DNA of 45,524 nt from Campylobacterales bacterium (GTDB lineage: Bacteria > Campylobacterota > Campylobacteria > Campylobacterales > Sulfurimonadaceae): NCBI GenBank assembly GCA_014859655.1, contig JACUTT010000015.1, positions 1-45,524 on the forward strand, read 5' to 3'. The notes beneath the pieces were generated by a model that made no database searches, was not told the DNA's origin, and worked only from the letters and a program-made list of their open reading frames with translations. Shown here piece by piece: positions 20,204 through 38,541 of this stretch. The position numbers and the translations under genes are program-made. Positions within the stretch are counted from its first letter, which is position 1. Each line of letters opens with the position of its first letter.

Positions 20204-23200
20204 ATGTCTACAAAACACTACATTCTCGATACTATTAAAAAACGCCCCCTTATCATCGACGGTGCCATGGGAACCCAGCTTCAAGACCGCTCTGATCGCA
20301 TCAGCGAGGAACAGTGGGAAGGCAACGAGGGGTGCAACGAACTGCTTAACGTCACAGCTCCCAAGATCCTCGAAGAGATCTACCACGCCTACCTGACCGC
20401 CGGTGCCGACCTTCTCACCACCAACACCTTCGGCGCCTTCGACTGGGTACTTGACGAGTATAACATCGGCCACCGCGCCTATGAGCTTGCCAAGGCAGGC
20501 GCCGAGATCGTCAAGCGAGAGTGCGACAAATTTTCCACACCCGAGCATCCGCGTTTCGTGCTCGGCTCCATCGGACCGGGGACCAAGCTTCCCTCGCTGG
20601 GGCACATTCATTACGACACCATGCTCAAAGGCTACACCGAGTGTGCGCTTGCGCTGATCGACGGCGGCACCGATATCTTCCTGCTCGAAACCTGCCAGGA
20701 CCCCCTGCAGATAAAAGCCGCACTTCATGCCTGCCAGGCGGCCAACAGCGAGCGTGGAACCGAACTGCCTATCATGGTTTCGGCCACCATCGAGCTTGCC
20801 GGAACGATGCTGATCGGAACAGACGCGCAGACGATCGCAACGATCATGGAGCCTTTTGACATTCTCAGCCTCGGCTTCAACTGCGGAACAGGACCGGAGC
20901 AGTATGGAAAACATATCAAGATACTCTCCGAAGTCTGGGGCAAGCCTATCTCCGTGCATGCCAATGCGGGCCTGCCGCAAAACCGCGGGGGCTATAGCTT
21001 CTATCCGATGGGACCCGATGAGTTCGCGGACAAGCAGGAGTCTTTTCTCGCCTACGACGGGGTTGCCTTTTTGGGCGGCTGCTGCGGAACAACCCCTCAG
21101 CATATCCGTGCTCTGGTCAACCGCGTCAGTGCTATAACACCCAAGGCTCCCGTCGGCTCTCAGCCGGCCGCTCTCGCCTCGCTTTTCAACACCGTTGCCC
21201 TGATGCAGGACCCGGCACCTCTGCTTATCGGCGAGCGTTCCAATGCCACGGGTTCAAAGGCCTTCAAAGATCTTCTGCTTGTTGAGGATTATGAAGGAAC
21301 GCTGAGCGTGGGGCAGCAGCAGGTGCGCGCAGGTGCGCATATTTTGGATGTCTCTGTCGGTTTTGCCGGGCGGGACGAGACGCGCGACATGAACAAGATC
21401 ATGGCGCTCTACGCCCAAAAGATACCCCTTCCACTGATGCCCGACTCCACCCAGACCGCGGCACTCGAAGAGGCCTTGAAGATGATAGGCGGAAAGGCCA
21501 TCATCAACTCGGTCAACCTCGAAGACGGGATAGAGAAGTTTGATGTCATCTGCGCCTTGGCCAAAAAATTCGGCGCCGCCCTGGTCTGTCTGACTATCGA
21601 TGAGACAGGCATGGCCAAGAGCGTCGAACGCAAACTCGAAGTCGCCGAACGCATCTATGAGCGCGCAACGCAGCTTCACGGCATCAAGGCTGAAGATCTG
21701 GTCTTTGACGTGCTCACCTTTACGCTCGGTTCGGGCGATGTGGAGTACAGAGACGCCGCCATACAGACCATCGATGCTATTCGTGCCCTGCGCCAGAAAC
21801 ACCCTGAAGTAGGAACGACACTCGGCCTTTCTAACATCTCTTTCGGTCTGGATAAGGATGCACGCCCTTACCTCAACTCCATCTTTTTGGACCACTGTAT
21901 CAAGGCGGGTCTGACCTCGGTTATCATCAATGTCAAGCACATCATCCCGCTCAATAAGATCTCTCAGGAGGAGCAGGATATCTGCAACGATCTCCTCTTT
22001 GACAAACTGCCAAACGGGAAGGCGCTTTTTGACTTCATCGACCACTTCTCCACCAAAGAGGCCGTCGACAACGAGGCGGAAGACGAAGCCTACAAGATGC
22101 TCAGCGACGAAGAGAAGATTGCGAAACTCCTGATGGACGGGGACAAGGATCGGATGATCCCGCTGGTAGAAATTGCCCGCCATGCTATAGCCCCCGAAAA
22201 GATCGTCAACGAGATCCTCATTGATGCAATGAAGGTCGTCGGTGAACTCTTCGGTTCGGGCCAGATGCAGCTGCCATTCGTACTGCAGTCGGCCGAAACG
22301 ATGAAGACCACCGTCGACTACCTCAACCCCTACCTTCCAAAACAGGACAAGGTGACGGAAACGACTCTAGTTCTGGGAACGGTCAAGGGAGACGTGCATG
22401 ATGTGGGCAAAAATCTTGTCGATATCATCCTGACCAACAACGGTTTCAATGTCATCAATCTGGGCATCAAAGTCGATCTTGACAAGTTTTTGGAGGTACT
22501 CAAAGAGGGCAATATCTCGGCTATCGGCATGAGCGGTCTGCTCGTCAAATCGACGCAGGTGATGAAAGAGAACCTTGTCGCGATGAAAGAAGCCGGGATC
22601 ACCATCCCTGTACTGCTCGGCGGTGCGGCGCTGACCCGCTCCTTTATCGATGACTTTTGCCGTACCAACTACGACGGACCCATCTACTACTGTAAAGACG
22701 CCTTTGACGGGGTCACCGCAATGGGGCGCATCGAAGCGGGCAATCCGGATACCAACCTTCACGGCGATGCGGGACTTGAAAAAGAGAAGACGCCAAAGAA
22801 AGAGATCATCATCCCTCCCTTTGAGCAGCTCAACATGCCATCAAGAGATGTGCTTGTGCCGACGCCGCCGTTTTGGGGTCGACGCGTGATGCAAGTCGGA
22901 AAAGATTTTCAACTCGAGCTTGCCTTCGAGTGGATCAACCACAAGATCCTCTTCAAACAGCGCTGGGGTTACAACTCCAAGGGGCTGAGCAAGGCCGAAT
23001 ACGAGAAACAGCTGGAGACAAAGGTCTGGCCGGCCTATGAGCGCATCAAAAAGCTCTTTTTGGATGAAAATCTTTTCGATCCGACGGTGCTGTACGGCTA
23101 CTACCCTGTGCGCTCAGACGACAATTCTCTGCTCGTCTTTGATGAAAGCGAAGGATGGAACAGCGAAAGTGACATCAACACTGAGCCGCTCGCAGAGGTC

Positions 23201-23698
23201 ATCGGCCGTGCGGAACATATCTTCACCTTTCCACGCCAGAGCAAAAAACCGCACCGCGCGCTTTCGGACTTCTTCCACCGCGACCGCCACGATGTTCTGG
23301 CCATGACCTGTGTCTCGGCGGGAAGTAAGCTGAGCGAGTATGAAAAAACGCTTTATGACGAGGGGAAATACACCGAATACTACCTGGTGCATGGACTAGG
23401 CGTCGAGCTTGCCGAGGCCCTGGCGGAGATCGTGCATAAGCAGATCCGCCTCGATCTGAACATCTGCGACAATGAAAAACCCGTTCTCTCGGATGTGCGC
23501 ATGAACAAGTACCAGGGATCGCGCTACTCTTTTGGGTATGCCGCCTGTCCGGATCTTGAGCTCAACAAGCCTCTTTTTGCGCTTTTACGCCCCGAAGAGT
23601 TCGGCATAGAGCTCTCCGAGACCTTTCAGATCCATCCCGAGCAGTCGACCTCAGCCCTGGTGGTCTACCACCCGAACGCCAGCTATTACAATGTCTAA
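20204..23698 (+). CDS. metH: Cobalamin-dependent methionine synthase
   Basis: The 1164-residue protein has all four MetH modules and transfers the methyl group of methyltetrahydrofolate to homocysteine by way of cobalamin. The homocysteine-binding barrel (about 1-310) has zinc ligands Cys227, Cys293 and Cys294. The folate-binding barrel (about 340-620) includes IGERSNATGSK. The cap and B12-binding domains follow, with GDVHDVG at 729-735 and cobalt-ligand His732, as in the base-off/His-on form. The AdoMet-binding activation domain closes the protein. The gene needs finished B12, which the cluster at 26-38 kb helps to make. It is followed 16 bases later by a dsbC-like gene. No riboswitch was seen upstream. 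Confidence 0.97.
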   Translation: MSTKHYILDTIKKRPLIIDGAMGTQLQDRSDRISEEQWEGNEGCNELLNVTAPKILEEIYHAYLTAGADLLTTNTFGAFDWVLDEYNIGHRAYELAKAGAEIVKRECDKFSTPEHPRFVLGSIGPGTKLPSLGHIHYDTMLKGYTECALALIDGGTDIFLLETCQDPLQIKAALHACQAANSERGTELPIMVSATIELAGTMLIGTDAQTIATIMEPFDILSLGFNCGTGPEQYGKHIKILSEVWGKPISVHANAGLPQNRGGYSFYPMGPDEFADKQESFLAYDGVAFLGGCCGTTPQHIRALVNRVSAITPKAPVGSQPAALASLFNTVALMQDPAPLLIGERSNATGSKAFKDLLLVEDYEGTLSVGQQQVRAGAHILDVSVGFAGRDETRDMNKIMALYAQKIPLPLMPDSTQTAALEEALKMIGGKAIINSVNLEDGIEKFDVICALAKKFGAALVCLTIDETGMAKSVERKLEVAERIYERATQLHGIKAEDLVFDVLTFTLGSGDVEYRDAAIQTIDAIRALRQKHPEVGTTLGLSNISFGLDKDARPYLNSIFLDHCIKAGLTSVIINVKHIIPLNKISQEEQDICNDLLFDKLPNGKALFDFIDHFSTKEAVDNEAEDEAYKMLSDEEKIAKLLMDGDKDRMIPLVEIARHAIAPEKIVNEILIDAMKVVGELFGSGQMQLPFVLQSAETMKTTVDYLNPYLPKQDKVTETTLVLGTVKGDVHDVGKNLVDIILTNNGFNVINLGIKVDLDKFLEVLKEGNISAIGMSGLLVKSTQVMKENLVAMKEAGITIPVLLGGAALTRSFIDDFCRTNYDGPIYYCKDAFDGVTAMGRIEAGNPDTNLHGDAGLEKEKTPKKEIIIPPFEQLNMPSRDVLVPTPPFWGRRVMQVGKDFQLELAFEWINHKILFKQRWGYNSKGLSKAEYEKQLETKVWPAYERIKKLFLDENLFDPTVLYGYYPVRSDDNSLLVFDESEGWNSESDINTEPLAEVIGRAEHIFTFPRQSKKPHRALSDFFHRDRHDVLAMTCVSAGSKLSEYEKTLYDEGKYTEYYLVHGLGVELAEALAEIVHKQIRLDLNICDNEKPVLSDVRMNKYQGSRYSFGYAACPDLELNKPLFALLRPEEFGIELSETFQIHPEQSTSALVVYHPNASYYNV

Positions 23699-25652: not shown

Positions 25653-26030
25653 GTGCGCAGTCCAAAGGGTTTTGGTAAGAACTATTTTTCGCTTAGCTCC
25701 ATCTGTGCGCACTCCTCCGCGAGCGTCTTGCATGCGCAATGCACGGCCTTTACCCACGCCAGCCGCAACTTCTCCTTCGAGACGCTGGAGGAGGATGAGG
25801 AGCCGTTGATTGACGAACTCGAGCTGATCGAGTGCAGCTCGCCTCGCTCAAAGAGCTCCTCCAGGCACTGCAACTGCTACTTTAAACGCCTTCTCTACAT
25901 CCTCACGCAGCTATTCAAATTTCACCCCCAAACTTTTTTCATCCACCTCTACAACCGTTCAGGCATTGCTCCGCCTTTTTCATTTTTATTTTCATATTTG
26001 CAAACAAAAAACAAAATTAGGAAATATTAA
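25653..26030 (+). CDS. Hypothetical ORF overlapping the btuB start
   Basis: A GTG at 25653, preceded by AAGGGG with good spacing, opens a 125-residue ORF whose TAA overlaps the ATG of the TonB receptor (TAATG). The middle (about 25720-25870) has G/C-rich third codon positions like the neighbours and reads FSFETLEEDEEPLIDELELI, an acidic patch followed by Ser/Cys-rich sequence. The start has a weak secretion-like stretch. The last 40 codons look AT-rich and less coding-like. I do not recognise the protein and the call is weak. Confidence 0.3.
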   Translation: MRSPKGFGKNYFSLSSICAHSSASVLHAQCTAFTHASRNFSFETLEEDEEPLIDELELIECSSPRSKSSSRHCNCYFKRLLYILTQLFKFHPQTFFIHLYNRSGIAPPFSFLFSYLQTKNKIRKY

Positions 26031-27880
26031 TGACAAAAAAAATAACAGTATCCCTTTTAAGCATGCTGCTTCTAAACAACGTCTATGCGGCGCCCATTGA
26101 ACTTGATGAAGTCACTGTAGAAGCGGCCAACAGAACCGAACAAAATATCAAAGACCTGACAGAATCTGTTACAGTTATTTCGGCACAAGAGATTGAAGAG
26201 TCCCGTGTAACTACTCTTTCCCAAGCATTGAACCGTCTTGGAAATATTGCGATGACATCCAACGGGGGGCCCGGTCAATCAAGTTCTATGCTTGTACGCG
26301 GTTTTGATTCAAAACGTGTCTTAGTCTTGGTCGATGGCATTCGTTATAACGATATCACTGGACTCAGTGGTGCACAGTTTTCTCAAATCATGCTAAATGA
26401 TGTTGAACATATAGAGATCATCAAAGGCGCCCAATCGGGCATCTGGGGTGCGGATGCATCTGCTGGTGTCATAAACATTGTCACTAAAAAAGGGAAAAAA
26501 GGAACACAGGCTACTGCCAATGTTGAGTATGGTTCATTTGCAACAAAACAGGCCAGTGCTCAGATTTTTCATAAAACAGACAGTTATGATTTCTCTTTTG
26601 GCGCATCCCGTTATGACACACGTGGGTTCTCCGCAGCAGAGCCAAAAAGTACGAGTGCGGATTATGGAAAACGTGGGGATGAACTAGGGTGGGAAGATGA
26701 TGCCTACGTCAACAAAACATACAACGCAAAGGCTGCCTACAACCTCACTGAAAACGACAGAGTAGAGGCAAGTTTTCGTTACATCGACAGCTATATCGAA
26801 TATGATGATGGAGCAGGTTTAGACGCGCCAAATGGTCCCTATACAGTAAATGATTTAGACAGTTATTTTTATTCTGCTGCATATAAACATAAAGACAAGC
26901 TCAATGACCTTGCTTTGCAATACAGCCTTTCACGCTTCAAGCGCTCCCAGTACGGCGGATATAGCGGAGATGTAGAGGAGATCTCTTTGCAAGACAAAAT
27001 TGCTTATGCCGAAGACTCTTTTGCTAGAGTTGGCGCCTCCTATCAGCGCTATCAGCAACAGACATCAGCCGGATCCGATCTTGATAAAAAATACAATGCG
27101 AAATCAGTCTATGCAACAAACTACAATAAGTTTCTTCTCTTGGAAGAGCTCGGAAGCACCATTTTCACCCAATCTCTGCGATATGACAGGTACAGTGTTT
27201 TCAACAATAAGACAACGGGAAAAGTTGGCCTTAAACAGTTTGTTCATAAGGATATTTACCTAAGTTCAAACTATGGCACGGCGTACAACATTCCAACACT
27301 TGACCAACTCTTTGGACGTTTCGGCACTTCTGAGCTCTCTCCTGAAGAGACAAAAAGCCTGGATCTAACCCTTGGAAACGACAATCTGACGCTCACCTAT
27401 TTCTACAACAAAGTGACAGACATGATCGAATGGACCCGGGTACAGTCAGACGCAAGCTATAACAACATTTCAGGAGTCTCGCGTCTCAAAGGTGTAGAAC
27501 TAGGCTATAAAGATGACTTTTTTGATCTACTCAGTTTAGGAGTAAACTATACCTATTTAGACGCTAAAGCTGCCGACGGAAGCACTCTTGCCAGGCGCCC
27601 CAAGCACCAGCTTGACGGAAATGTTTTCTACTTCATTACCGAAGGATTAAATATCGGTCTAAACGGTCAATACATCGGTACACGATACGATGGCAAAGAC
27701 AATTCTGGTGCCCAAACAGGAAAATATGCTCTCTTTAATACCGTTGTAAACTACACGATTAATGATAACTTCACGCTCTATGGAAAAATTGATAATATTA
27801 CCGACAAATATTATCAGGTCGTTGACGGATATGCCACCGCGGAACGCTCCTATTATGCCGGTCTGACGGCTAAATTTTAG
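26030..27880 (+). CDS. btuB: TonB-dependent cobalamin receptor, BtuB-like
   Basis: The 616-residue outer-membrane receptor has a signal peptide ending VYA, a TonB-box-like LDEVTVEA directly after it, a plug domain (SVTVISAQEIEES, GFDSKRVLVLVDGIRYND, VEHIEIIKGAQSGIWGADAS, VINIVTKKGKKG) and a 22-strand barrel ending in Phe (SYYAGLTAKF). Length matches E. coli BtuB (about 614). Position at the head of a cobalamin uptake and assembly operon supports cobalamin or cobinamide as substrate; the sequence alone would allow another chelate. AGGA lies eight bases before the ATG. I found no cobalamin riboswitch in the roughly 600 bases upstream. Confidence 0.9.
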   Translation: MTKKITVSLLSMLLLNNVYAAPIELDEVTVEAANRTEQNIKDLTESVTVISAQEIEESRVTTLSQALNRLGNIAMTSNGGPGQSSSMLVRGFDSKRVLVLVDGIRYNDITGLSGAQFSQIMLNDVEHIEIIKGAQSGIWGADASAGVINIVTKKGKKGTQATANVEYGSFATKQASAQIFHKTDSYDFSFGASRYDTRGFSAAEPKSTSADYGKRGDELGWEDDAYVNKTYNAKAAYNLTENDRVEASFRYIDSYIEYDDGAGLDAPNGPYTVNDLDSYFYSAAYKHKDKLNDLALQYSLSRFKRSQYGGYSGDVEEISLQDKIAYAEDSFARVGASYQRYQQQTSAGSDLDKKYNAKSVYATNYNKFLLLEELGSTIFTQSLRYDRYSVFNNKTTGKVGLKQFVHKDIYLSSNYGTAYNIPTLDQLFGRFGTSELSPEETKSLDLTLGNDNLTLTYFYNKVTDMIEWTRVQSDASYNNISGVSRLKGVELGYKDDFFDLLSLGVNYTYLDAKAADGSTLARRPKHQLDGNVFYFITEGLNIGLNGQYIGTRYDGKDNSGAQTGKYALFNTVVNYTINDNFTLYGKIDNITDKYYQVVDGYATAERSYYAGLTAKF

Positions 27881-27902: not shown

Positions 27903-28943
27903 ATGCAGAAAATATCACTTGACAATTCACCTTTTAAAGAGAAAAAAGCCGACTTCCTCCTCGCGGCTAGCGTGACGCATACCTGCGAGATCCCTCTGCT
28001 TACCCAGGCGGGAATTCCGGGGAAGATCCCGCTTACGCCGACGCTGGATGCGGAGTTTGTCTCCACGGGAAGGGTCTTTTCTCTGGGCGAGATCGCCGAA
28101 ACGCCCAAGGGCGTGCCAACGCCTGCACTCATCACCCGGGCCGTGCATGAGCTCTGTTCTTTTTCAAAAATCCAGATCCTGGATCTAGGGCTTGTCACTG
28201 CGCCGCAGCAGTGCGACCTCATAGGCTTCGATATTCTCCCCACGCCCAGCATAACAGATGAGAAGGGGTTTGATGCGAAGGCTGTTTTTGAGAAGGGCTT
28301 TGAGTTCGGCAAGCACTATCAGCTTCAAGGCGACTATCTGATCTTGGGCGAAAGCACTCCTTCTGGGACGACAACGGCCCAAGCCTCGGTCACTGCCCTG
28401 GGATACGCAAGCGAAGGACTTTTTGCCTCCTCCTTTAAAGATTCCCCCAAGAACATAAAAGAGCAGACGATTGCCAAAGCCCTTGGCAAACTCAACGCCA
28501 ATATGGGCCTCTTTGAAAAGCTCGGCCATACCGCGGACAACATGCTTCTCTTCACCGCAGGTTTTGTCCTTTCCGCTTCGCGCCGTTTCAACATCGTGCT
28601 CGCAGGCGGCACGCAGATGGCCGCCGCCCTGCTGATTGCCAACAAGATCGCCAGGCTCAGGGGCATCCATCATGACAACCGCCATATCCACCTCTGCACG
28701 ACCCGATGGATCGCCGAAGACAAAGACTCGGACATCCTCTCCCTTATCGGCCAGCTTGATTTCAGGCTGAAGGCCTATTACGCCGACTTTAGTTTTGCGG
28801 ACTCTGCTCACCCTGCCTTGAAGCTCTACGACAAGGGAGAGGCCAAAGAGGGCGTCGGCGCGGGAGCTGCCATCGCCTATGCCTATGCCCGGGGCATCTC
28901 TCAAAAAGAGCTGAGCAGAAAGATCGAGGAGTACCTGCTGTGA
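27903..28943 (+). CDS. cobT: Archaeal/cyanobacterial-type CobT (nicotinate-nucleotide:DMB phosphoribosyltransferase)
   Basis: The 346-residue protein belongs to the TIGR00303/UPF0284 group, found mainly in archaea and cyanobacteria as the CobT counterpart, and not to the common E. coli/Salmonella CobT family. The family landmark GESTPSGTTTAQA is near residues 148-160, and GHTADNMLLFTAGF and LAGGTQMAAALL follow. The reaction is transfer of phosphoribose from nicotinate mononucleotide to dimethylbenzimidazole, giving alpha-ribazole phosphate. It lies 22 bases after btuB, and its TGA overlaps the cobU GTG, which supports the assignment by context. Confidence 0.85.
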   Translation: MQKISLDNSPFKEKKADFLLAASVTHTCEIPLLTQAGIPGKIPLTPTLDAEFVSTGRVFSLGEIAETPKGVPTPALITRAVHELCSFSKIQILDLGLVTAPQQCDLIGFDILPTPSITDEKGFDAKAVFEKGFEFGKHYQLQGDYLILGESTPSGTTTAQASVTALGYASEGLFASSFKDSPKNIKEQTIAKALGKLNANMGLFEKLGHTADNMLLFTAGFVLSASRRFNIVLAGGTQMAAALLIANKIARLRGIHHDNRHIHLCTTRWIAEDKDSDILSLIGQLDFRLKAYYADFSFADSAHPALKLYDKGEAKEGVGAGAAIAYAYARGISQKELSRKIEEYLL

Positions 28944-29434
28944 AGGCGCTCTTCATCGGCGGGATCAAAAGCGGCAAATCCCTCCATGCCGAAGCCTTTG
29001 CCCTTAAGCACTCCAAGCTCCCGCCGGTCTATCTGGCCACGACGGAGTTTATCGATGAGGAGATGAAAGAACGCATCGATCTGCACAAGATCCAAAGAAG
29101 TGAAAACTTCCTGACCCTCGAGGAGCCGATGAACCTTCTCGAAGCGATCCGCCCGCTCAAGACCCTTGTACTGCTCGAATGCACCTCGATGTGGATCAAC
29201 AACATGCTCCACCACGGCTTTAAAGATAAGGATATCAAAGAGCATCTCGAAAAGCTTCTCTGTCTTCCTCAGGATATCGTCTTTGTCCTCAATGATGTCG
29301 GCTCAGGGATCATCCCCGATAATGCCCTGGCCAGAGAGTATGTCGATATCTCCGGAAAAAGTGCCCAGCTCCTGGGAAAAAACTGCGACAGGGTCTTTCA
29401 CTGTATCGCAGGCATCTGTACGAAAATAAAATAG
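28940..29434 (+). CDS. cobU: Adenosylcobinamide kinase / adenosylcobinamide-phosphate guanylyltransferase
   Basis: The 164-residue protein is a CobU/CobP enzyme that phosphorylates adenosylcobinamide and then converts it to adenosylcobinamide-GDP. The P-loop is GGIKSGKS (7-14); His49 in RIDLHKIQR is placed like the histidine that takes GMP in Salmonella CobU. LLECTSMWINNML and VLNDVGSGIIPDN are further family landmarks. It is slightly short (usual 170-190). The GTG start overlaps the cobT stop (GTGA), so translation is coupled. Confidence 0.93.
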   Translation: MKALFIGGIKSGKSLHAEAFALKHSKLPPVYLATTEFIDEEMKERIDLHKIQRSENFLTLEEPMNLLEAIRPLKTLVLLECTSMWINNMLHHGFKDKDIKEHLEKLLCLPQDIVFVLNDVGSGIIPDNALAREYVDISGKSAQLLGKNCDRVFHCIAGICTKIK

Positions 29435-29445
29435 ACGGGCCGACG

Positions 29446-30201
29446 ATGCGCAACAGAGCAGCACAGATTCTTTCCAACATAGCCAAAGGCTTTTCCCTTG
29501 CCGTCTCTATGCTGACGACGCTCCCCTTTTTCCGCGTGCATGATTTCTTTAGCGGGATCAACGGCTATGCCGTGATGTTCTACCCTTTGGTCGGCTTTTT
29601 GCTCGGTGCCCTCCTCTATCTTTTTCACTTCCTGCTTGCGCCCTACCTCCCCTTAGAGCATCTCAACATCCTCCTCTTTGCCCTTTGGATAGTCTTGACG
29701 GGAGCCCTTCACCTCGACGGTTTTTCCGACACCGTCGATGCCCTCTTTGTCCCCAAAGAGAGAGCGGCCGAGGTGATGAAGGATCCCCATGTTGGGGCGA
29801 TGGGGATGGGCTTTAGTGCTGTTTTTCTTATCGTAAAAGCCTCTGCGCTTTGGCATCTTGAGGCTGTATGGGCGCTTCCGATCATCTTGATGTTTTCGCG
29901 TTTCACTGCCGTCTTGGCGATCTACTTCTTCCCCTACATCCGTGAGAACGGGATGAGCACCCTGGCCAAGCAGGAGTTCACATTGACGCAGCTCCTTTTC
30001 TCTTCGTTTATGGTCGGCCTTGCCGCTCTGCTCTTTCCCTCGGGGCTTCTTCTTCTGGGGACGGCGCTTATTGGCCTGCTTCTTTTCACGCTCTGGTTCA
30101 AGCGCCGTTTCGGAGGATTCAGCGGTGACCTTTACGGTTTTATGATCGAGATGAGCGAGCTGATCCTTTTGCATATCCTGCTTATAGCTGCTCTCTCATG
30201 A
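29446..30201 (+). CDS. cobS: Adenosylcobinamide-GDP ribazoletransferase (cobalamin synthase)
   Basis: The 251-residue inner-membrane protein joins adenosylcobinamide-GDP with alpha-ribazole or its phosphate. Family motifs are GALHLDGFSDTVDAL, MKDPHVGAMGMG and FGGFSGDLYGF. About six membrane segments are visible. It follows cobU by 11 bases and its TGA overlaps the ATG of cobC (ATGA), so the genes form one coupled operon. Confidence 0.95.
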   Translation: MRNRAAQILSNIAKGFSLAVSMLTTLPFFRVHDFFSGINGYAVMFYPLVGFLLGALLYLFHFLLAPYLPLEHLNILLFALWIVLTGALHLDGFSDTVDALFVPKERAAEVMKDPHVGAMGMGFSAVFLIVKASALWHLEAVWALPIILMFSRFTAVLAIYFFPYIRENGMSTLAKQEFTLTQLLFSSFMVGLAALLFPSGLLLLGTALIGLLLFTLWFKRRFGGFSGDLYGFMIEMSELILLHILLIAALS

Positions 30202-30767
30202 TTATCACCCTTCTGCGCCACGGCGAAGTCGATGAGGCCTATAGAGGCTGCTATAACGGCCATATCGATATCGGCCTCTCACCAAGAGGAAAAGCAGAGG
30301 CAAAAGCCCTCGCAGGCGTGCTTAAAACAGAAGCTTTCGAGGCTGTCTTCTGCTCCGATCTGAAACGCTGCAGGCAGATGCTCGAAGCCTTCGATCTAAA
30401 GACAAAACCCCTCTACACGCAGGCCCTGAGGGAAAAATCCTGGGGACGCCATGAGGGGAAGCGCTTTGAGGAGATCATCCAAACGGAAAGTTTCGCTTAT
30501 GAGAGTTTCGAGCAGTGGATCAATGCCCTCGACGGAGAGCAATATCCCCTCTATATAAAACGCATAGAGCACTTCTTCAAAAATTTTCTTCCCCTCAGCC
30601 CCCATAAGAACATCCTCGTCGTGACCCATGCCGGCGTTATCCGTGTCCTGATGCATCTTCTTCAAAACATCTCGCTCGAAGAGGCTTTTTCCAAGGGCTT
30701 TGGGTATGCAAACTACATCTGTCTCGACACGCAAAACTGGACATTCGGAGAGATCCAGTGCCTCTGA
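30198..30767 (+). CDS. cobC: Alpha-ribazole phosphatase, histidine phosphatase family
   Basis: The 189-residue cytoplasmic protein has the phosphoglycerate-mutase/histidine-phosphatase core: LLRHGE with nucleophile His8, SDLKRCRQM, a second catalytic Glu in REKSWGRHEG and the C-terminal THAGVIR histidine. In cobalamin pathways CobC removes the phosphate of alpha-ribazole-5'-phosphate or adenosylcobalamin-5'-phosphate. Sequence alone gives a broad phosphatase; the operon position after cobS decides the name. It overlaps cobS at its start and btuF at its end. Confidence 0.87.
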   Translation: MIITLLRHGEVDEAYRGCYNGHIDIGLSPRGKAEAKALAGVLKTEAFEAVFCSDLKRCRQMLEAFDLKTKPLYTQALREKSWGRHEGKRFEEIIQTESFAYESFEQWINALDGEQYPLYIKRIEHFFKNFLPLSPHKNILVVTHAGVIRVLMHLLQNISLEEAFSKGFGYANYICLDTQNWTFGEIQCL

Positions 30768-31579
30768 TCCTTTTGCTTCTGCTTCCTCTGTATGTTTTCG
30801 CCTCCGAGCGGATTATCACCCTTGCGCCCTCTTTGAGCGAGATCGTCTATGCCCTGGGAAAAGGAGATGAGCTGGTCGGCGTCAGCGAGTTCTCCTCCTG
30901 GCCCGAAGAGGTGAAGGAGATCACTAAAGTCGGCGGCTACTCCAACCCCTCCCTTGAAAGAGTCCTCTCGCTGAACCCGACCCTTGTCATCGGCCAGGGG
31001 AAATATGCGCATACGATAAGCCAGATCAAAGAGCTGGGCGTCAAGACCCTCAGCTTCGAGCTCGATACGATAGAAAATATCAAAAGCGCGATCCGAAAGA
31101 TTGCAGACGAACTTCACAGCGACGCATCCCCTCTGATAAACCCGATCAACGAAGCGCTTAAGCAGGTCAAAGAGGACAAACGGCTCGGTTCTGCGCTCAA
31201 GGGGAAAAAGGTCCTGATCATCTACGGCCTCTCTTTGGATATGAACCGCGGGATGTACATCGCCGGACACCATATCTTCTATGAGGAGATCATAGAGCTT
31301 GCCGGGGCGCAAAATGCCTTTCAGGGCGAGTTCCCGGGCCAGCCCGTAATCCACTACGAGGCTCTTTTACAGCTCAACCCCGATATCGTCATTTTGATCC
31401 ACCAAGAGGGGACCGACGGAAAGATCGACACGGAAAAAGCCAAAGCGCTCTGGTACACCATTCCCATCAACGCCTCCAAAAACAGAAGGATCCATATTAT
31501 GCAAAAAAGCTACCTCTCCATCCCCTCCCACCGCATTGCCAAAACGATCAGAGAGATCGCCGAGGTGATAGCACAATGA
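30758..31579 (+). CDS. btuF: Periplasmic cobalamin-binding protein of the ABC transporter
   Basis: The 273-residue protein is a class III (BtuF/FhuD-like) solute-binding protein with a signal peptide (MPLILLLLLPLYVFA). Family text includes RIITLAPSLSEIVYALG, WPEEVKEITKVGGYSNPSLE and LLQLNPDIVILIHQEG. It would hand cobalamin or cobinamide to BtuCD. The GTG start lies 10 bases before the end of cobC, and the stop overlaps the btuD ATG. The substrate is inferred from the operon, since the same fold also binds siderophores. Confidence 0.88.
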   Translation: MPLILLLLLPLYVFASERIITLAPSLSEIVYALGKGDELVGVSEFSSWPEEVKEITKVGGYSNPSLERVLSLNPTLVIGQGKYAHTISQIKELGVKTLSFELDTIENIKSAIRKIADELHSDASPLINPINEALKQVKEDKRLGSALKGKKVLIIYGLSLDMNRGMYIAGHHIFYEEIIELAGAQNAFQGEFPGQPVIHYEALLQLNPDIVILIHQEGTDGKIDTEKAKALWYTIPINASKNRRIHIMQKSYLSIPSHRIAKTIREIAEVIAQ

Positions 31580-32310
31580 TCCTCTCAGAACTCTCCCTCG
31601 CCTACGGGAACACGACTGTCCTCGATGGCATAGATCTTCAAACCAAGCGGAACTTTTCCATCCTCGGTGCCAACGGAAGCGGGAAGAGCACTCTGGCCAA
31701 GGCGCTCTGCGGACTCATCCCCTACGAAGGGAGTATCCTTATAGACGAGCAGGAGCTGCGCGGGATGGAGCCCAAAGAGAGGGCCAAAAAGATCGCCTAT
31801 ATCCCCTCGAAGATGCAAAGCTTCGAGCAGTTCACCAGTGTCGAAGAGTTCGTTCTGCTGGGGCGCTACCCCTATAAGAGCAGCTTCAAAGACTACTGCG
31901 ACAGCGACAAGAAACGGGTGAAAGAGATCCTAGAGGAGCTCAATATCAGTTCCCTTGCCAAGTCGAACCTCGATGCCCTCAGCTCCGGCCAGCAGCAGCT
32001 TGTCTTGATTTCGCAGGCCCTGGCCCAGGAGAGTGACTACATCATCTTTGACGAGCCCACGGCAAATCTTGATCCCAGGAACACACAGCTTTTTCTGCAG
32101 GAGTTCAAAAAACTGCGCCAAAACCATACCACTGTTTTGATCACCCATGACATCCAGCTTGCCTCGCATCTGAGTGATCCCGTACTCTTTATCAAAGAGA
32201 AGGCGGCAAAGTTTTACGAAAGCGGTTTTTTTGAAAAAGAGTTTTTGAGCCTCTCCTATGATGTTAAGTTTAAAAATGAAAACGGCCTGATTGGGATAGA
32301 GTATGTCTAA
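31576..32310 (+). CDS. btuD: Cobalamin ABC transporter, ATP-binding protein
   Basis: The 244-residue ATPase has Walker A GANGSGKST (31-39), signature LSSGQQQL, Walker B YIIFDEPTANLDP and switch LITHD. It powers import of corrinoid through BtuC. The usual LSGGQ is LSSGQ here, a common variation. Start overlaps btuF (ATGA) and end overlaps btuC by eight bases, so the three transporter parts are coupled. Confidence 0.92.
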   Translation: MILSELSLAYGNTTVLDGIDLQTKRNFSILGANGSGKSTLAKALCGLIPYEGSILIDEQELRGMEPKERAKKIAYIPSKMQSFEQFTSVEEFVLLGRYPYKSSFKDYCDSDKKRVKEILEELNISSLAKSNLDALSSGQQQLVLISQALAQESDYIIFDEPTANLDPRNTQLFLQEFKKLRQNHTTVLITHDIQLASHLSDPVLFIKEKAAKFYESGFFEKEFLSLSYDVKFKNENGLIGIEYV

Positions 32311-33262
32311 GGCGCTCATATGGATTTTTCTGCTTCTGCTGGCCCTGCTCTCCCCCTTTGTCGGAATCGCCACACTTGATATTGATACCCTTTTGGAGAG
32401 CGGCTCCCTCTCCAACCGTATCTTTTTTGACCTTCGCCTTCCGAGGATACTCTTGGCCTTTATGGTCGGAGGGAGTCTGGCCCTGGCCGGCCTTCTCTTT
32501 CAGACCCTCTTTCGAAATGCCCTGATGACTCCCTTTACCCTTGGTGTCTCTGGCGGGGCCGTTTTGGGCGCAGGGATTGCGATAAAACTGGGGCTCGGTC
32601 TGACGCTCGGCATCTCCGCCGTCTCCCTCTTCGGCTTTGGCGGCGCACTCTTTACCATCGTCCTGCTGATCCTTCTTTCGCGCTACCTTCTCAAGGCACG
32701 TCAGGAGTCGCTTCTTCTTCTGGGGATCGCCCTCTCCTTTTTCTACTCCTCGGCGCTGATGGTGCTCTTTTACCTCAGCTCTTTTACGGAGACCGCGACG
32801 ATCATGCGCTTTACGATGGGAAGCCTCTCCATCGTCGGCTACAGCAATGTCATCATTATCTCCATAGCCTCGCTCTTCTTGCTGCTTCTGCTCTGGTTTA
32901 AGCGTTTCGAGCTGCAGCTTTTGGCCCTCTCGGACGAGCAGGCTGCACTGAAGGGGATCAATACCCGCCGGCTAAGCTACCTCCTGCTGCTGATCACCTC
33001 CATCATCATCGGCGTTGTCGTGAGTCTGACGGGGCCTATCGGCTTTATCGGCCTGATCATCCCGCATATGGTGCGGCGCCTCTATCAAAAGAGTGTCGTC
33101 TCGCTGATCGTACCGGTGTTTCTGATCGGAGGGCTCTTTCTTCTGGCCTGCGACACCCTGACGCGGTTCCTCTCAAGCAGCAGCGAGATCCCCATCGGTG
33201 TCCTCACGGCGCTTATCGGCGGGCCTTTTTTCATCTATCTCATCATCTCCAGACAAAGGTAA
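32303..33262 (+). CDS. btuC: Cobalamin ABC transporter, permease (FecCD/BtuC family)
   Basis: The 319-residue inner-membrane protein has about ten hydrophobic segments and FecCD/BtuC landmarks: LRLPRILLAFMVGGSLALAG, FRNALMTPFTLGVSGGAVLG, the coupling region GPIGFIGLIIPHMVRRL and EIPIGVLTALIGGPFFIYLI at the end. It forms the translocation channel with BtuD. The order btuF-btuD-btuC inside a B12 assembly operon supports corrinoid as cargo over iron-siderophore. Confidence 0.92.
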   Translation: MSKALIWIFLLLLALLSPFVGIATLDIDTLLESGSLSNRIFFDLRLPRILLAFMVGGSLALAGLLFQTLFRNALMTPFTLGVSGGAVLGAGIAIKLGLGLTLGISAVSLFGFGGALFTIVLLILLSRYLLKARQESLLLLGIALSFFYSSALMVLFYLSSFTETATIMRFTMGSLSIVGYSNVIIISIASLFLLLLLWFKRFELQLLALSDEQAALKGINTRRLSYLLLLITSIIIGVVVSLTGPIGFIGLIIPHMVRRLYQKSVVSLIVPVFLIGGLFLLACDTLTRFLSSSSEIPIGVLTALIGGPFFIYLIISRQR

Positions 33263-33267
33263 TATAA

Positions 33268-33699
33268 ATGAGTTATATCTCATGGTTCCAAGAACACGGC
33301 AAAAAGCACAAGGCCATTATCGACAAGCTGCTTTCGCGCGGCTATAGCAAAGAGCAGATCATCGACTATTTCGACTTTGACGCGATGGTCGTAAACGAGC
33401 CCGACTTCTGCCCTCTCTACGCTGAAAACAAAAAGTGCCACGATATGCAAAGCCTCAACTGCTACCTCTGCTCCTGCCCGAACTTCCGTTTCGACGACGA
33501 GGGTGTGGACATCATAGAGGAGAAAAAACGCTACAGCTTTTGCAGTATCGACTCCAAGGATGGCCGCGTCGGCGTCTATGGAGAGAAGATCCATCAGGAC
33601 TGCTCGAAATGCACCGTGCCCCACCACAGGGCCTATGTAGAGAAGCATTTCGATCTGGAGTGGTTCAAGATCATGAAAGCATGCCCCTGTGGGGATTAA
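33268..33699 (+). CDS. Cysteine-rich small-domain (PF04071-like) protein
   Basis: The 143-residue soluble protein has a helical N-terminus (about 1-40) and then a cysteine-rich metal-binding-like domain. Cysteines occur in DFCPLY, KKCHDM, LNCYLCSCPNFRF, SFCSID, QDCSKCTVPHH and ACPCGD. This pattern matches the cysteine-rich small domain often encoded in cobalamin gene clusters; its role is unknown, and metal storage or delivery is only a guess. It lies five bases after btuC and overlaps the kinase gene by 11 bases, which ties it to the operon. Confidence 0.82.
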   Translation: MSYISWFQEHGKKHKAIIDKLLSRGYSKEQIIDYFDFDAMVVNEPDFCPLYAENKKCHDMQSLNCYLCSCPNFRFDDEGVDIIEEKKRYSFCSIDSKDGRVGVYGEKIHQDCSKCTVPHHRAYVEKHFDLEWFKIMKACPCGD

Positions 33700-34546
33700 G
33701 ACGGAGCTCTGCGTCTCGCAGGCCAGGGCACTTTTCCCGCATCTAAATATCCTCTCTCTGCAGCCGACGCATGAGGGCGTTATCGATACGACCTATATCC
33801 TTGAAACGCCAGGCGAAAACTATATCCTCAAAAAATATGAGCGTGCGCTCAAAGAGCAGAGAGAAGAGGAGGCAAGGCTCCTTAAGCATCTGCGTGCCCA
33901 TGGGCTGAATGTCCCTGTTCATCTGGACAGCTCTGATGAGTGGCAGCTTTTCAGCTATCTCAAAGGCCATACGCCAAAGAGACCGAACCTTTCGCAGCTG
34001 AGATCTCTGGGCGCTTTTCTGGGAAAGATGCACGCGCTTACCAGGGGGAAAAAGGCTTCTTTCACTCCCTTTGAGAAAAGCAGCTTCATTAAGGCAGTTG
34101 GGAAGCTGCGCCGGCACGACCTTCTGCTTGCCAAACGGCTCAATCCCCTGCTCTATTTTGAGCAGCGCTTCGACGGCATTATCCACGCCGACCTTTTTCC
34201 CGACAATGCGAAATTTGACGCTCTGCGGATCGGGGTCTTTGATTTTATCGAAGCGGGAAACGGGAGCTTTGCTTTTGACGCGGGGGTCACGGCGATGAGC
34301 TGGATTTCAACACACAGACAGCTCAGCCGATCAAAACTGCAGCTCTTTTTAAACGCCTATAACCAAAATGCACCCTGCAAACTGACCCTGGACCTTCTCT
34401 TGACACAGATGCAGAGTGCCTCCCTTGTCTATGCCCTGCAAAGACGCCTCAATGACGGGCATGATCTAAGCCATAAGCCGATGCTGCGCAAGCACTCCGG
34501 CATCAGACGCTTCAGAAAAGATATTTTAAAAAGAGCCAGGCTGTAA
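33689..34546 (+). CDS. APH/choline-kinase-fold phosphotransferase, candidate L-threonine (or serine) kinase
   Basis: The 285-residue protein has the aminoglycoside-phosphotransferase kinase fold like homoserine kinase ThrB type II. An ATP-binding N-lobe (EGVIDTTYILETPGENYILKKY) is followed by the catalytic loop HADLFPDN (166-173) and metal-binding Asp185 in VFDFIEAG. It starts with GTG inside the end of the Cys-rich gene, so it is part of the B12 operon, and it runs into cbiB tail to tail with 35 bases overlapping. CobD needs L-threonine phosphate (or serine phosphate), and no PduX-type GHMP kinase is seen here. This protein is the natural candidate to make it. That function is inference; homoserine or ethanolamine are alternatives. 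Confidence 0.75.
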   Translation: MGIKTELCVSQARALFPHLNILSLQPTHEGVIDTTYILETPGENYILKKYERALKEQREEEARLLKHLRAHGLNVPVHLDSSDEWQLFSYLKGHTPKRPNLSQLRSLGAFLGKMHALTRGKKASFTPFEKSSFIKAVGKLRRHDLLLAKRLNPLLYFEQRFDGIIHADLFPDNAKFDALRIGVFDFIEAGNGSFAFDAGVTAMSWISTHRQLSRSKLQLFLNAYNQNAPCKLTLDLLLTQMQSASLVYALQRRLNDGHDLSHKPMLRKHSGIRRFRKDILKRARL

Positions 34547-35420
34547 ATATGCAGAGCAAAATCAGCAGGTCTATGCCTGTGCGCATGCCGAGCGCCTTGA
34601 ACAGGTCCTCCTTCTCTATCTCTTCTCTGCCATGCCCGAAATAGGCCTTGGGCTGGAGCTTTCCGAAATAAAAAGTCGGCCCGCCGAGCCTCACCCCTAC
34701 GGCCATCGCCATCGCCGTTATAGGGTGTCCCGCATTGGGGCTGGAGTGTTCTCTGCCCTGGGTGTAAAAGGAGAGAAGAGCTCTCTGCCGCCCCAGCAGC
34801 ATGATCATCATAGCCGTCAGACGCGAAGGGATAAGATTGGCCGCGTCATCCAGGCGGGCCGAGACCTTTCCGAACTTCTCATACCTCTCGTTTCTATAGC
34901 CGACCATAGAGTCCAGAGTATTGACCGCCTTGTAGAGGATGATCCCCGGCAGACCGAAAAGAAGAAGGTAAAAAAGCGGCGCCACCACCGCGTCACTCAG
35001 GTTCTCCGCATAGGTCTCTATGCCCGCCTTGTATACCTCGCTCTCACTGAGCCCGGAAGTGTCCCGGCTGACGAGCATTTTCAGCTTCTCTCTAGGCTCT
35101 TTCGCCCCGATCAGCTCGGCCACCGCGTCATAGAGCATCCGGTGCGCCAAAAACATCGAGGCCAAAAAAGAGCTCAATGCCATCTGCAGATACCAGGGCA
35201 GCAGCGCAAGAAGGGAAACGGCCAGCAAAGAGGCCGAGCCGCTTAGAAGAAGGATAAAGAGCGTCAGCAGAACTCCTCTGAAAATGCTGTCTGCATAAAA
35301 ATGCTTCTCGAACCAGCTTATCGCCTCGCCGATAAGGATGACCGGATGCTTGACAAAGCTAAACTCCCCAAAGAGCCGGTCCAGCAGGTAGGCAAAAAAA
35401 GAAATGGCAAGATTACTCAA
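34512..35420 (-). CDS. cbiB: Adenosylcobinamide-phosphate synthase
   Basis: The 302-residue inner-membrane protein attaches aminopropanol phosphate (or ethanolamine phosphate) to adenosylcobyric acid. CbiB landmarks are LLDRLFGEFSFVKHPVILIG, VSRDTSGLSESEVYKAGIET, ENLSDAVVAPLFYLLLFGLPG, YKAVNTLDSMVGYRNERYE and SPNAGHPITAMAMAVGVRLGG. The TTG start overlaps the cobQ stop by eight bases and AAGG lies seven bases upstream. Its 3' end overlaps that of the convergent kinase gene by 35 bases. Confidence 0.95.
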   Translation of the reverse strand: MSNLAISFFAYLLDRLFGEFSFVKHPVILIGEAISWFEKHFYADSIFRGVLLTLFILLLSGSASLLAVSLLALLPWYLQMALSSFLASMFLAHRMLYDAVAELIGAKEPREKLKMLVSRDTSGLSESEVYKAGIETYAENLSDAVVAPLFYLLLFGLPGIILYKAVNTLDSMVGYRNERYEKFGKVSARLDDAANLIPSRLTAMMIMLLGRQRALLSFYTQGREHSSPNAGHPITAMAMAVGVRLGGPTFYFGKLQPKAYFGHGREEIEKEDLFKALGMRTGIDLLILLCIFTAWLFLKYLF

Positions 35421-36801
35421 TCAGTGCCTTCATCAGCCTGTCCATATCCATGTTCTCCTCCACATGCGCCGCAAAGCTTCGGATGCTTTCTTCCTTGTAG
35501 GCTTGAAAGTCGAAACCTCTGTAGGCGGGATTGATCTGCGAAAAAAGCATCTTCCTGAAATCATTGTTATCAAATATTCCGTGTACGAAGGTGCCGTAGA
35601 CCTTCTCTTTTTGCGCCCAGAGAGGCTCCGCCATCCCGTTATGGATCTCATACCCCTCGATCTGCAGACCGAAGAGGGAGTAGACTCCTTTTTTCACGCG
35701 CTTCTCTCTCTCGAAACAGACCTCGCCTTTTAAAAATCCAAGCCCTTTGACGCTCGCAGGCTCGTCCGATTCGATCCCCTCTGTGTCCGAGATCGTCTCA
35801 AACATCATCTGATACCCCCCGCAGATCGCCGCTATGGGCTTGCCCGATTCTTTCAAAAAGGTGTCAAATCCCTGTTTTTTCAGCCACTCCAGGTCGTTCA
35901 TCGTCCGTTTCGTCCCCGGAAGGATAAGAAGATCGCACTGCTGCGCCTCGTGCAGGCTTTTGATAAAGCGCAGATCGATCTGCCTGTCGGCGACAAGCGG
36001 CTCGAAGTCCGTAAAGTTGCTGATATGGGGGAAATGGAGCACGCCTACGGTGATGATGCTCTGACTGACGTCCTGCGTGTAGTTCAGAAGCGACTGCGAA
36101 TCCTCAAAACCGAGGTTGAAACTTTTGTAGGGGATGACGCCCAGAACGGGGATGCCGAACTCCTTTTCGATGATCTCTCTCCCCGCGTCAAAGAGGCTCA
36201 TATCGCCTCTGAACTTGTTCACCAGCACGCCGACGACATTGGCCCTCAAAACCTCGGGAAGAAGGTTGTACACCCCCCAGATGGAGGCGAAGACCCCGCC
36301 TCTCTCTATGTCTGCGACAAGGACGATCTTTGTGCGAAACTCCGTAGAGATGTAGATGTTGCTCAGGTCTCTGCTCATCAGGTTGAGCTCGACTGGACTC
36401 CCCGCCCCCTCGGCGACGATACACGCAAACTCTGAGCGCAGGCGAAGAAAGGCCTCTTTAACGACAGGCTTTAGCGTCTGTATCTCATCATAATAATCCA
36501 GTACGCTCTTGATCCCTCGGCTCTGGCCGTTGATGATCAGCGAAGAGCTTTTTCCCTTTCCCGACTTAAGTAGGACCGGGTTCATATCGGAGCTGGTGGG
36601 CAAGCCGATGGACTCGGCCGCAAAGTACTGCGCCTGCGCGATCTCTCCGCCGCTGTCGCAGACCCTGGAGTTGTTGGATACATTCTGCGCCTTGAAAGGA
36701 GCCACCTTGATGCCCCGATGGTGCAGCAGATAAGTCAATGCGAAAGAGAGGGTTGACTTGCCGGCGTCCGAACTGGTCCCGAAGATACTAAGCGAGTGCA
36801 T
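35413..36801 (-). CDS. cobQ: Adenosylcobyric acid synthase (glutamine-hydrolysing)
   Basis: The 462-residue enzyme amidates four side chains of adenosylcobyrinic acid a,c-diamide. The N-terminal dethiobiotin-synthetase-like ATPase has P-loop GTSSDAGKST (8-17) and KAQNVSNNS. The C-terminal class-I-like glutamine amidotransferase has PGTKRTMNDL, nucleophile Cys in AAICGGYQMMFE and the late GIFDN region (TFVHGIFDN). It overlaps cobD by 14 bases. Its presence suggests that corrin amidation, and perhaps full corrin synthesis, is encoded elsewhere, or that imported cobyric precursors are finished. Confidence 0.95.
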   Translation of the reverse strand: MHSLSIFGTSSDAGKSTLSFALTYLLHHRGIKVAPFKAQNVSNNSRVCDSGGEIAQAQYFAAESIGLPTSSDMNPVLLKSGKGKSSSLIINGQSRGIKSVLDYYDEIQTLKPVVKEAFLRLRSEFACIVAEGAGSPVELNLMSRDLSNIYISTEFRTKIVLVADIERGGVFASIWGVYNLLPEVLRANVVGVLVNKFRGDMSLFDAGREIIEKEFGIPVLGVIPYKSFNLGFEDSQSLLNYTQDVSQSIITVGVLHFPHISNFTDFEPLVADRQIDLRFIKSLHEAQQCDLLILPGTKRTMNDLEWLKKQGFDTFLKESGKPIAAICGGYQMMFETISDTEGIESDEPASVKGLGFLKGEVCFEREKRVKKGVYSLFGLQIEGYEIHNGMAEPLWAQKEKVYGTFVHGIFDNNDFRKMLFSQINPAYRGFDFQAYKEESIRSFAAHVEENMDMDRLMKALIE

Positions 36802-37786
36802 CGAGTGCCTTTTTCAATAGATCCAAAGAGGCTCTCTCTTTGACGGCAAAGCGCAGATGCTCGTCTCCTAGAAAGTCGAAATTGCCGCATTGGCGCACAA
36901 GAAGCTTCTGCTTAAGGAGTTCGTCATAGATCCTCTGTGCCTGGGGCGATCTGACGAGAAAAAAGTTCGCACTGCCGGGGTAGATCTTGCTGAAAAGCCC
37001 GCTGCTTTGAAGTATTTCAAAGAGCATCTCCTTGTGTTTTAGATGCTCCTTCTGTGCTTTTGAGACAAAACCCTTCTCCTGCAGGCGCTCCGTCAAAAAG
37101 GCCGCGTCAAAGGAGGAGAGGGCCCATCTTGGGCTGCTGAGTCTTTGGATGTTCTTCTTGTTTGAGAAGAGCGCACCTATCCTTACCCCAGCGCAGGCGT
37201 GAAACTTTGTAAATGAGTGGATGATGTAGAGCCTTTTACAGCTCCTGATCTTTTCTCTGAAAGAGGGAAGGTTCTCAAACTCCACAAAGGACTCGTCCAG
37301 CACTATCGTACACTTCTGTTTTTCCCAGATCGCAAACAGGGCCTTCAGATCGTAAAATTTGCCCTCGGGAGTAGAAGGGTTGACAAAAACGACGATGGAG
37401 CCTTTTTTCGGTTTTTTGTAGAGTTCTTTAAAGCGGTTGATCTTGCTGATTTTTTTGGACGCTGCAAGGGCAGCCGTCTCATACTCGCCATACAGCGGCG
37501 CATACAATACGACATTCTTTTCCTTCAGGCTTCTGAAGAGTTCGAAGATGGCCGCCGTCGCCCCGTTGAAAAGCGCCATCTCTCTCTTTTTTACCCCATA
37601 TTTTTTCGATATTGCCGCTTTGAGGGAGCTATAGGAGGGGTCTGCGTATTTAAGGATCATCTCCTGCGTCGGTATTATCTCTGTTTTGGGATGAAAGGCA
37701 TTGATGTTGGAGGAGAAGTCGACGATCTCTTCGCTTTTACAGCCGAGTTTTTTTGAAATCTTGTAGATATTTCCGCCGTGCTTCAT
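36788..37786 (-). CDS. cobD: Threonine-phosphate decarboxylase (aminotransferase fold)
   Basis: The 332-residue PLP enzyme is of the CobD family, which decarboxylates L-threonine O-3-phosphate to aminopropanol phosphate. The family opening KHGGNIYKISKKLG is present, as are IVDFSSNINAF, FNGATAAIFELF and the PLP lysine Lys194 in HSFTKFHACAGVRIG. Related CobDs of Sulfurospirillum act on serine phosphate and make ethanolamine phosphate for norcobamides, so the preferred substrate here is open. It heads a cobD-cobQ-cbiB operon, divergent from bluB. Confidence 0.92.
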   Translation of the reverse strand: MKHGGNIYKISKKLGCKSEEIVDFSSNINAFHPKTEIIPTQEMILKYADPSYSSLKAAISKKYGVKKREMALFNGATAAIFELFRSLKEKNVVLYAPLYGEYETAALAASKKISKINRFKELYKKPKKGSIVVFVNPSTPEGKFYDLKALFAIWEKQKCTIVLDESFVEFENLPSFREKIRSCKRLYIIHSFTKFHACAGVRIGALFSNKKNIQRLSSPRWALSSFDAAFLTERLQEKGFVSKAQKEHLKHKEMLFEILQSSGLFSKIYPGSANFFLVRSPQAQRIYDELLKQKLLVRQCGNFDFLGDEHLRFAVKERASLDLLKKALDALA

Positions 37787-37887: not shown

Positions 37888-38541
37888 ATGAACTTTACGC
37901 CCGGCGACACCCAGACACTTTTAGACATTATGCGTTCCCGTCGGGACGTCAGAGGCAAGAGCTTTTTGGCCACGCCCCTTGAAGAGGAGAAGATCGAACT
38001 GATCTTGCAAGCAGCCCTTGCCGCACCCTCGGTAGGCTATTCCCAGCCGTGGGAGTTCATCCTGATCGATGATGAAACCATCAAAGAAAAGATCCATAAA
38101 AACTTCTGTTGTGAAAATGAAAAGGCCAAGGAAATCTTTGCCGAGAAGGAAAAATACAGGGAGCTGAAACTTGAAGGGATACGCGAAGCGCCCTTGAATA
38201 TCGCCGTGCTCTACTCCCCACAGAAAAAACCCGTATTGGGGACGACCTCGATGCAGAAGATGGGAGAGTACAGCGTTGTCTGCGCCATCGAAAACATGTG
38301 GCTGATGGCAAGGAGCTTGGATATCGGGATGGGCTGGGTCAGCATCCTAAATGAGAAGTCTGTGTTAAATACGCTCAAAGCTCCCCCGCAGAAACAGCTC
38401 ATCGCCTACCTCTGCCTGGGTTATGTCTCTTCCTTCGCATCTGAGCCGGAACTGAAGACGCTTAAATGGGAGAAAGAGAAGCAACGCAGCGAGCTTCTCC
38501 ACCGCAACCGCTACAACAACTCCTCTTCATCTAAGCCATAG
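37888..38541 (+). CDS. bluB: 5,6-dimethylbenzimidazole synthase
   Basis: The 217-residue flavoenzyme is of the nitroreductase fold and uses O2 to break reduced FMN into dimethylbenzimidazole, the lower ligand of true B12. BluB landmarks are SRRDVRGKSF with the conserved Asp20, APSVGYSQPWEF, AIENMWLMARSLDIGMGWVSIL with Ser152, and the FMN-contacting Arg cluster at the start. It argues for DMB-cobalamin, not norpseudocobalamin, and for at least micro-oxic life. The ATG has no clear ribosome-binding site. It completes the gene set on its left. Confidence 0.92.
   Translation: MNFTPGDTQTLLDIMRSRRDVRGKSFLATPLEEEKIELILQAALAAPSVGYSQPWEFILIDDETIKEKIHKNFCCENEKAKEIFAEKEKYRELKLEGIREAPLNIAVLYSPQKKPVLGTTSMQKMGEYSVVCAIENMWLMARSLDIGMGWVSILNEKSVLNTLKAPPQKQLIAYLCLGYVSSFASEPELKTLKWEKEKQRSELLHRNRYNNSSSSKP

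Follow-up and report, generated by a model that had tools for sequence, protein, structure and literature searches.

A candidate APH-fold L-threonine kinase associated with cobamide gene clusters in Campylobacterota

The decarboxylase CobD requires threonine phosphate (PMC6249242), and the source of this compound is unknown in most cobamide producers. pduX annotations are absent from most verified cobamide producers, and signature genes for norcobamides are lacking (Shelton et al., PMC6461909). We examined this supply question at a cobamide locus from a Campylobacterales bacterium of the Sulfurimonadaceae, whose genome (2.17 Mb) is 99.6% complete with a contamination estimate of 4.84%. Sulfurimonas is a member of its family-level clade. 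The stretch analyzed, hereafter the window, comprises 45,524 nucleotides and contains a gene for an APH-fold kinase, which we call KIN, beside genes for corrinoid uptake and cobamide assembly. We infer that KIN is likely an ATP-dependent kinase dedicated to cobamide assembly, with L-threonine as its presumed substrate and threonine phosphate as its presumed product.

Organization of the locus and the KIN protein

KIN is the last gene of a plus-strand operon with the order btuB-cobT-cobU-cobS-cobC-btuF-btuD-btuC-cysR-KIN (Table 1). An earlier note on this DNA had described the kinase gene as coupled to btuC and a Cys-rich gene, and we confirmed this arrangement: KIN follows btuC and cysR and overlaps cysR by 11 bp. 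The same note had the operon running on into cbiB-cobQ-cobD, which proved incorrect. These three genes lie on the minus strand, convergent with KIN, and the 3′ ends of KIN and cbiB overlap by 35 bp on opposite strands. KIN and cobD-cobQ-cbiB thus belong to two operons, not one.

Table 1. Cobamide-related genes and KIN catalytic positions in the window
Feature	Position	Strand	Basis
btuB-like TonB-dependent receptor	26030..27880	+	
cobT, TIGR00303/PRK04447 type	27903..28943	+	
cobU	28940..29434	+	
cobS	29446..30201	+	
cobC-like histidine phosphatase	30198..30767	+	
btuF-like binding protein	30758..31579	+	
btuD-like ATPase	31576..32310	+	
btuC-like corrinoid ABC permease	32303..33262	+	
cysR, Cys-rich PF04071-like, conserved cobamide-cluster partner	33268..33699	+	17.6 bits, under Pfam cut-off of 27
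KIN, APH-fold (ThrB-II-related) kinase, candidate L-threonine kinase	33689..34546	+	profile, fold
KIN Lys48 codon, canonical APH ATP-binding Lys	33830..33832	+	residue alignment
KIN HADLFPDN catalytic loop, H166-N173	34184..34207	+	alignment
KIN Asp185 codon, metal-binding aspartate	34241..34243	+	alignment
cbiB, convergent with KIN	34512..35420	-	TIGR00380, 227 bits (cut-off 165.9)
cobQ/cbiP	35413..36801	-	475 bits (cut-off 273)
cobD, threonine-phosphate decarboxylase-like	36788..37786	-	TIGR01140, 229 bits: best family, under cut-off of 290.6
bluB, DMB synthase	37888..38541	+	TIGR02476, 216 bits (cut-off 150)

Other features of the window were also recorded. The cysR product carries a strongly conserved motif (N-C-x2-C-x-C-P ... 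C-x2-C-x3-H) and is a divergent PF04071 relative; cysR also occurs in clusters that lack KIN. Its counterpart in the Sulfurospirillum norcobamide cluster is a clear PF04071 protein (L194:13149-13406). The B12-dependent methionine synthase MetH, a likely cobamide consumer, is encoded at 20204-23698. No cobalamin riboswitch was found within the window at the Rfam threshold.

The genome encodes CobQ, CbiB, and CobD, and we found neither CbiD nor CbiZ in it. Without CbiD, its cobamide pathway would work on an imported late corrinoid, and the organism probably finishes such a precursor. We considered KIN as a marker of de novo ring synthesis and rejected this idea, as most KIN genomes of the same family, including this one, lack CbiD. 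A remodeling role via CbiZ is likewise unsupported in this genome.

The KIN reading frame proposed earlier was confirmed. It encodes 285 amino acids from a GTG start that agrees with the conserved N-terminus of its relatives, MG(I/V)KT. The description of the product as an APH/ThrB-II-fold kinase with an intact HADLFPDN loop and Asp185 also held. The Pfam APH family (PF01636) matched KIN with an E-value of 7.5e-26 and 91.8 bits against a gathering score of 23.2, and this match together with the HxD...N / D motif places KIN in the APH superfamily. Among solved structures, the closest to the AlphaFold2 model (mean pLDDT 95.4) was that of homoserine kinase 2PPQ, with 23% identity, a Z of 26.3, and an rmsd of 2.7 across 270 residues. 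Residues H166, D168, D172, N173, and D185 were invariant in 12 KIN orthologues and across 50/50 sequences when ThrB-II proteins were included.

Relationship of KIN to known kinases

We compared KIN to homoserine kinase type II (ThrB-II; TIGR00938, NF003558, 2PPQ), with which it shares homology over the full length, a similar N-terminus (MxVxT in ThrB-II), the HxDLFxDN loop, and the DF motif. KIN scored 99 bits with NF003558 and 65 bits with TIGR00938, for which the cut-offs are 271 and 256 bits. With the homoserine kinase model whose cut-off is 271 bits, true ThrB-II controls scored 331-432 bits and KIN members 62-128 bits; KIN falls 130-210 bits under the ThrB-II cut-off. Eight residues that are nearly invariant in ThrB-II (N33, N35, T48, Y187, D192, N203, R228, and R247) are replaced in KIN. 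Position 48 is Lys in 16/16 KIN sequences and Thr in 33/33 ThrB-II sequences, and the replaced positions may line the substrate pocket. In a tree with ThrB-II, the KIN sequences formed one clade with support of 98/96. Two other APH kinases (L029 and L030, from genomes G123 and G122) fell outside the clade of KIN and ThrB-II as a family of their own and were excluded. Scanning GTDB genomes returned mostly proteobacterial ThrB-II. Within the examined flanks, 0/75 ThrB-II relatives from outside the phylum were near cobamide genes, compared with 3/5 Campylobacterota loci. Unlike ThrB-II, KIN is linked to cobamide genes and coexists with a canonical ThrB encoded elsewhere in the genome. Judged by cut-off and residues, KIN does not classify as a member of ThrB-II, nor is it a member of the PduX family. 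Its low score, the replaced signature residues, and the separate ThrB together indicate that KIN is not a homoserine kinase.

The only GHMP kinases in the genome are IspE and ThrB, the latter a canonical enzyme that matched TIGR00191 with 286 bits (cut-off 168). The GHMP model behind this census gave Salmonella PduX a score of 45.7 bits; because it recognizes PduX, the lack of a further GHMP match in this genome is meaningful. The ispE region appears on contigs C39 and C40 with equal scores, probably through assembly duplication. A direct search of 397 Campylobacterota genomes found no PduX (best score 18.6 bits). GHMP loci from 30 genomes bearing cbiB or KIN comprised 29 IspE, 26 ThrB, and 4 further loci that did not match PduX, and no PduX was found in the KIN-negative cbiB genomes. 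The genome scan and the direct search bear out the view that a PduX-type enzyme is missing here. The earlier note would have abandoned its reading for a genome with pduX or bluE and no other homoserine kinase, and what we found is a genome with no pduX and a separate canonical ThrB. It also proposed asking whether KIN orthologues are absent where pduX exists, a comparison that has no power in this phylum because pduX occurs in no genome searched.

PduX and BluE had been named as the known threonine phosphate suppliers. Both belong on the list, which is incomplete. MM2060 (MmCobD) from Methanosarcina mazei is a bifunctional kinase/decarboxylase according to a title cited in PMC6461909, and cbiU, a phosphoglycerate-mutase-like gene, has been proposed for Dehalobacter (PMC4285132). 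Salmonella PduX has the reaction and the place in the pathway that we propose for KIN, but it has the GHMP fold, whereas KIN has the APH fold and no GHMP match, and the two proteins aligned with an E-value of 1.0. BluE is described as a unique L-threonine kinase of Rhodobacterales in a title cited in PMC7242693, and its reaction is the one proposed for KIN. MM2060 and cbiU are, as KIN would be, non-PduX answers to the same missing step, but their folds differ from that of KIN, MM2060 being an aminotransferase-type CobD. The microcompartment aminopropanol kinase 6EF6 shares the APH fold with KIN and uses a related small amino-alcohol substrate, but it is a more distant match (Z 19.2, 16% identity) from a catabolic context. 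KIN thus probably represents a known reaction performed by a fold unreported for it in the searchable literature, outside which most subscription papers lie.

Co-occurrence and linkage with cobamide genes

The earlier note had proposed checking whether KIN orthologues co-occur with cobD/cbiB, and they do. We surveyed the 397 Campylobacterota genomes for KIN (profile A1 at 183 bits or more) and for cbiB (TIGR00380), which we chose as the pathway marker because the cobD model TIGR01140 matches HisC-like proteins in 150/150 genomes. KIN was present in 43 genomes, spanning 19 genera, and cbiB in 62; 41 genomes had both (Fisher p ~1e-37, which is uncorrected for kinship and reads only as "not chance"). 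In an earlier sample of 150 genomes, 11 had both genes. The distance from KIN to cbiB is at most 12 kb in 34/41 genomes, and in 4 others KIN is that close to cbiD (38/41 together). It often adjoins cobD, cobT, bluB, or cbi ring genes, and gene order varies by lineage (KIN-cobD-cbiB, cobT-KIN-bluB, or cysR-KIN-cobD), with another setting beside a cbiL-like tetrapyrrole methylase, cbiK, and cbiM. Such repeated re-linkage with cobamide genes is stronger evidence than a single inherited operon. KIN is associated with cobD/cbiB in genomes where PduX is absent.

Only two genomes carried KIN without cbiB. In one (G010), KIN lies beside cobD near a contig end. The other (G234) is a real exception: its KIN relative (L064:8001-8903; also L192) has no cobamide genes nearby. 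This protein scored 141 bits with the homoserine kinase model and retains the ThrB-II residue Asn203, and it is possibly an intermediate with another substrate. Conversely, 21/62 cbiB genomes lack KIN. In G009, cbiB, cysR, and an intact cobD are kept and KIN appears, from the sequence, to have been lost. A 70-aa ORF (L031:11530-11742) is all that occupies its place between cobD and cysR.

In about a dozen genomes of the Arcobacter type, cbiB occurs with cobD or cobQ and usually with cysR, and both KIN and PduX are missing. Their clusters (L173-L183) show the order cobT-cobU-cobS-cobD-cobQ-cbiB-cysR. Another source of threonine phosphate, or use of serine phosphate, must therefore exist in the phylum. 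These bacteria may draw on serine phosphate, have a bifunctional CobD, or employ a different kinase, and norcobamide production and another threonine kinase are both candidate explanations for their KIN-less clusters.

Substrate of KIN and alternative roles

Five of the KIN-less cbiB genomes belong to the Sulfurospirillum norcobamide genus. Across 16.9 kb, the cluster in one of them (G056) shares 99.8% identity with the Sulfurospirillum sp. SP cluster, in which the CobD-like gene is annotated as a norcobamide serine-O-phosphate decarboxylase, and the gene order in G056 is the one published for S. multivorans (PMC7755780). cbiB and the decarboxylase are present in the G056 cluster and KIN is not; the other four genomes likewise have cbiB without KIN. 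Serine synthesis normally passes through serine phosphate, which SerA/SerC make. The norcobamide pathway in Sulfurospirillum thus requires no kinase, and the absence of KIN from this cluster favors threonine as its substrate. We also looked for a CobD residue that separates KIN-positive from KIN-negative genomes; only position 275 (F/Y) was skewed, which kinship alone could explain.

These findings divide the earlier proposal of a non-orthologous threonine or serine kinase. Co-occurrence, linkage, and the lack of PduX support an amino-acid kinase feeding CobD, and the Sulfurospirillum cluster argues against the serine variant. A serine kinase supplying CobD for ethanolamine phosphate and norcobamides would perform the same chemistry, and the CobD-like enzyme of Sulfurospirillum is annotated as decarboxylating serine phosphate (PMC7755780). 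We nevertheless regard it as very improbable, since KIN is missing from the norcobamide cluster and serine synthesis already provides the phosphorylated substrate. If KIN instead phosphorylated free aminopropanol (or ethanolamine) to salvage it for CbiB in parallel with CobD, its occurrence in salvage-type genomes without CbiD would make sense, and 6EF6 shows that the APH fold can act on aminopropanol. Such a role seems quite improbable because 6EF6 is farther from KIN than ThrB-II is, because the activity would be redundant beside cobD, a frequent neighbor of KIN, and because the source of threonine phosphate would still be missing.

It is most unlikely, in our estimation, that CobD itself is the threonine kinase and that KIN has another cobamide role. 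MM2060 sets a precedent, and a bifunctional CobD would account for the cobD/cbiB genomes without KIN, but the tight association of KIN with cobD/cbiB would be left unexplained. MM2060 has a long C-terminal extension, and the CobD encoded in the window (332 aa) lacks one. Among named families and structures ThrB-II comes closest to KIN, yet it is hardly credible that KIN is an ordinary homoserine kinase placed in a B12 cluster by chance: besides the low scores and lost signature residues, this genome has its own GHMP ThrB, ThrB-type matches occur across the KIN genomes checked, and the distribution of KIN tracks cbiB, not threonine synthesis.

As a threonine kinase, KIN would phosphorylate the hydroxyl of L-threonine. 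CobD would then decarboxylate threonine phosphate to (R)-1-aminopropanol O-2-phosphate, which CbiB would join to adenosylcobyric acid, and CobU, CobT, CobS, and CobC would complete the nucleotide loop with DMB from BluB. KIN would stand in for the GHMP-fold PduX in many Campylobacterota. By descent it is related to homoserine kinase type II, yet it retains the canonical ATP-binding lysine, and its conserved residues, presumed to line the pocket, are different.

It is conceivable, though we are doubtful, that KIN is the first APH-fold cobamide L-threonine kinase and that its presence or absence beside cobD/cbiB marks the linker, with KIN-positive Campylobacterota making aminopropanol cobamides and KIN-negative cobD/cbiB genomes (the Sulfurospirillum and Arcobacter types) using serine phosphate to make norcobamides. 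If KIN is a dedicated threonine kinase, it would close the gap in threonine phosphate supply for many Campylobacterota, it would no longer be misannotated as a homoserine kinase or an aminoglycoside phosphotransferase, and it might serve as a simple genomic test for linker type.
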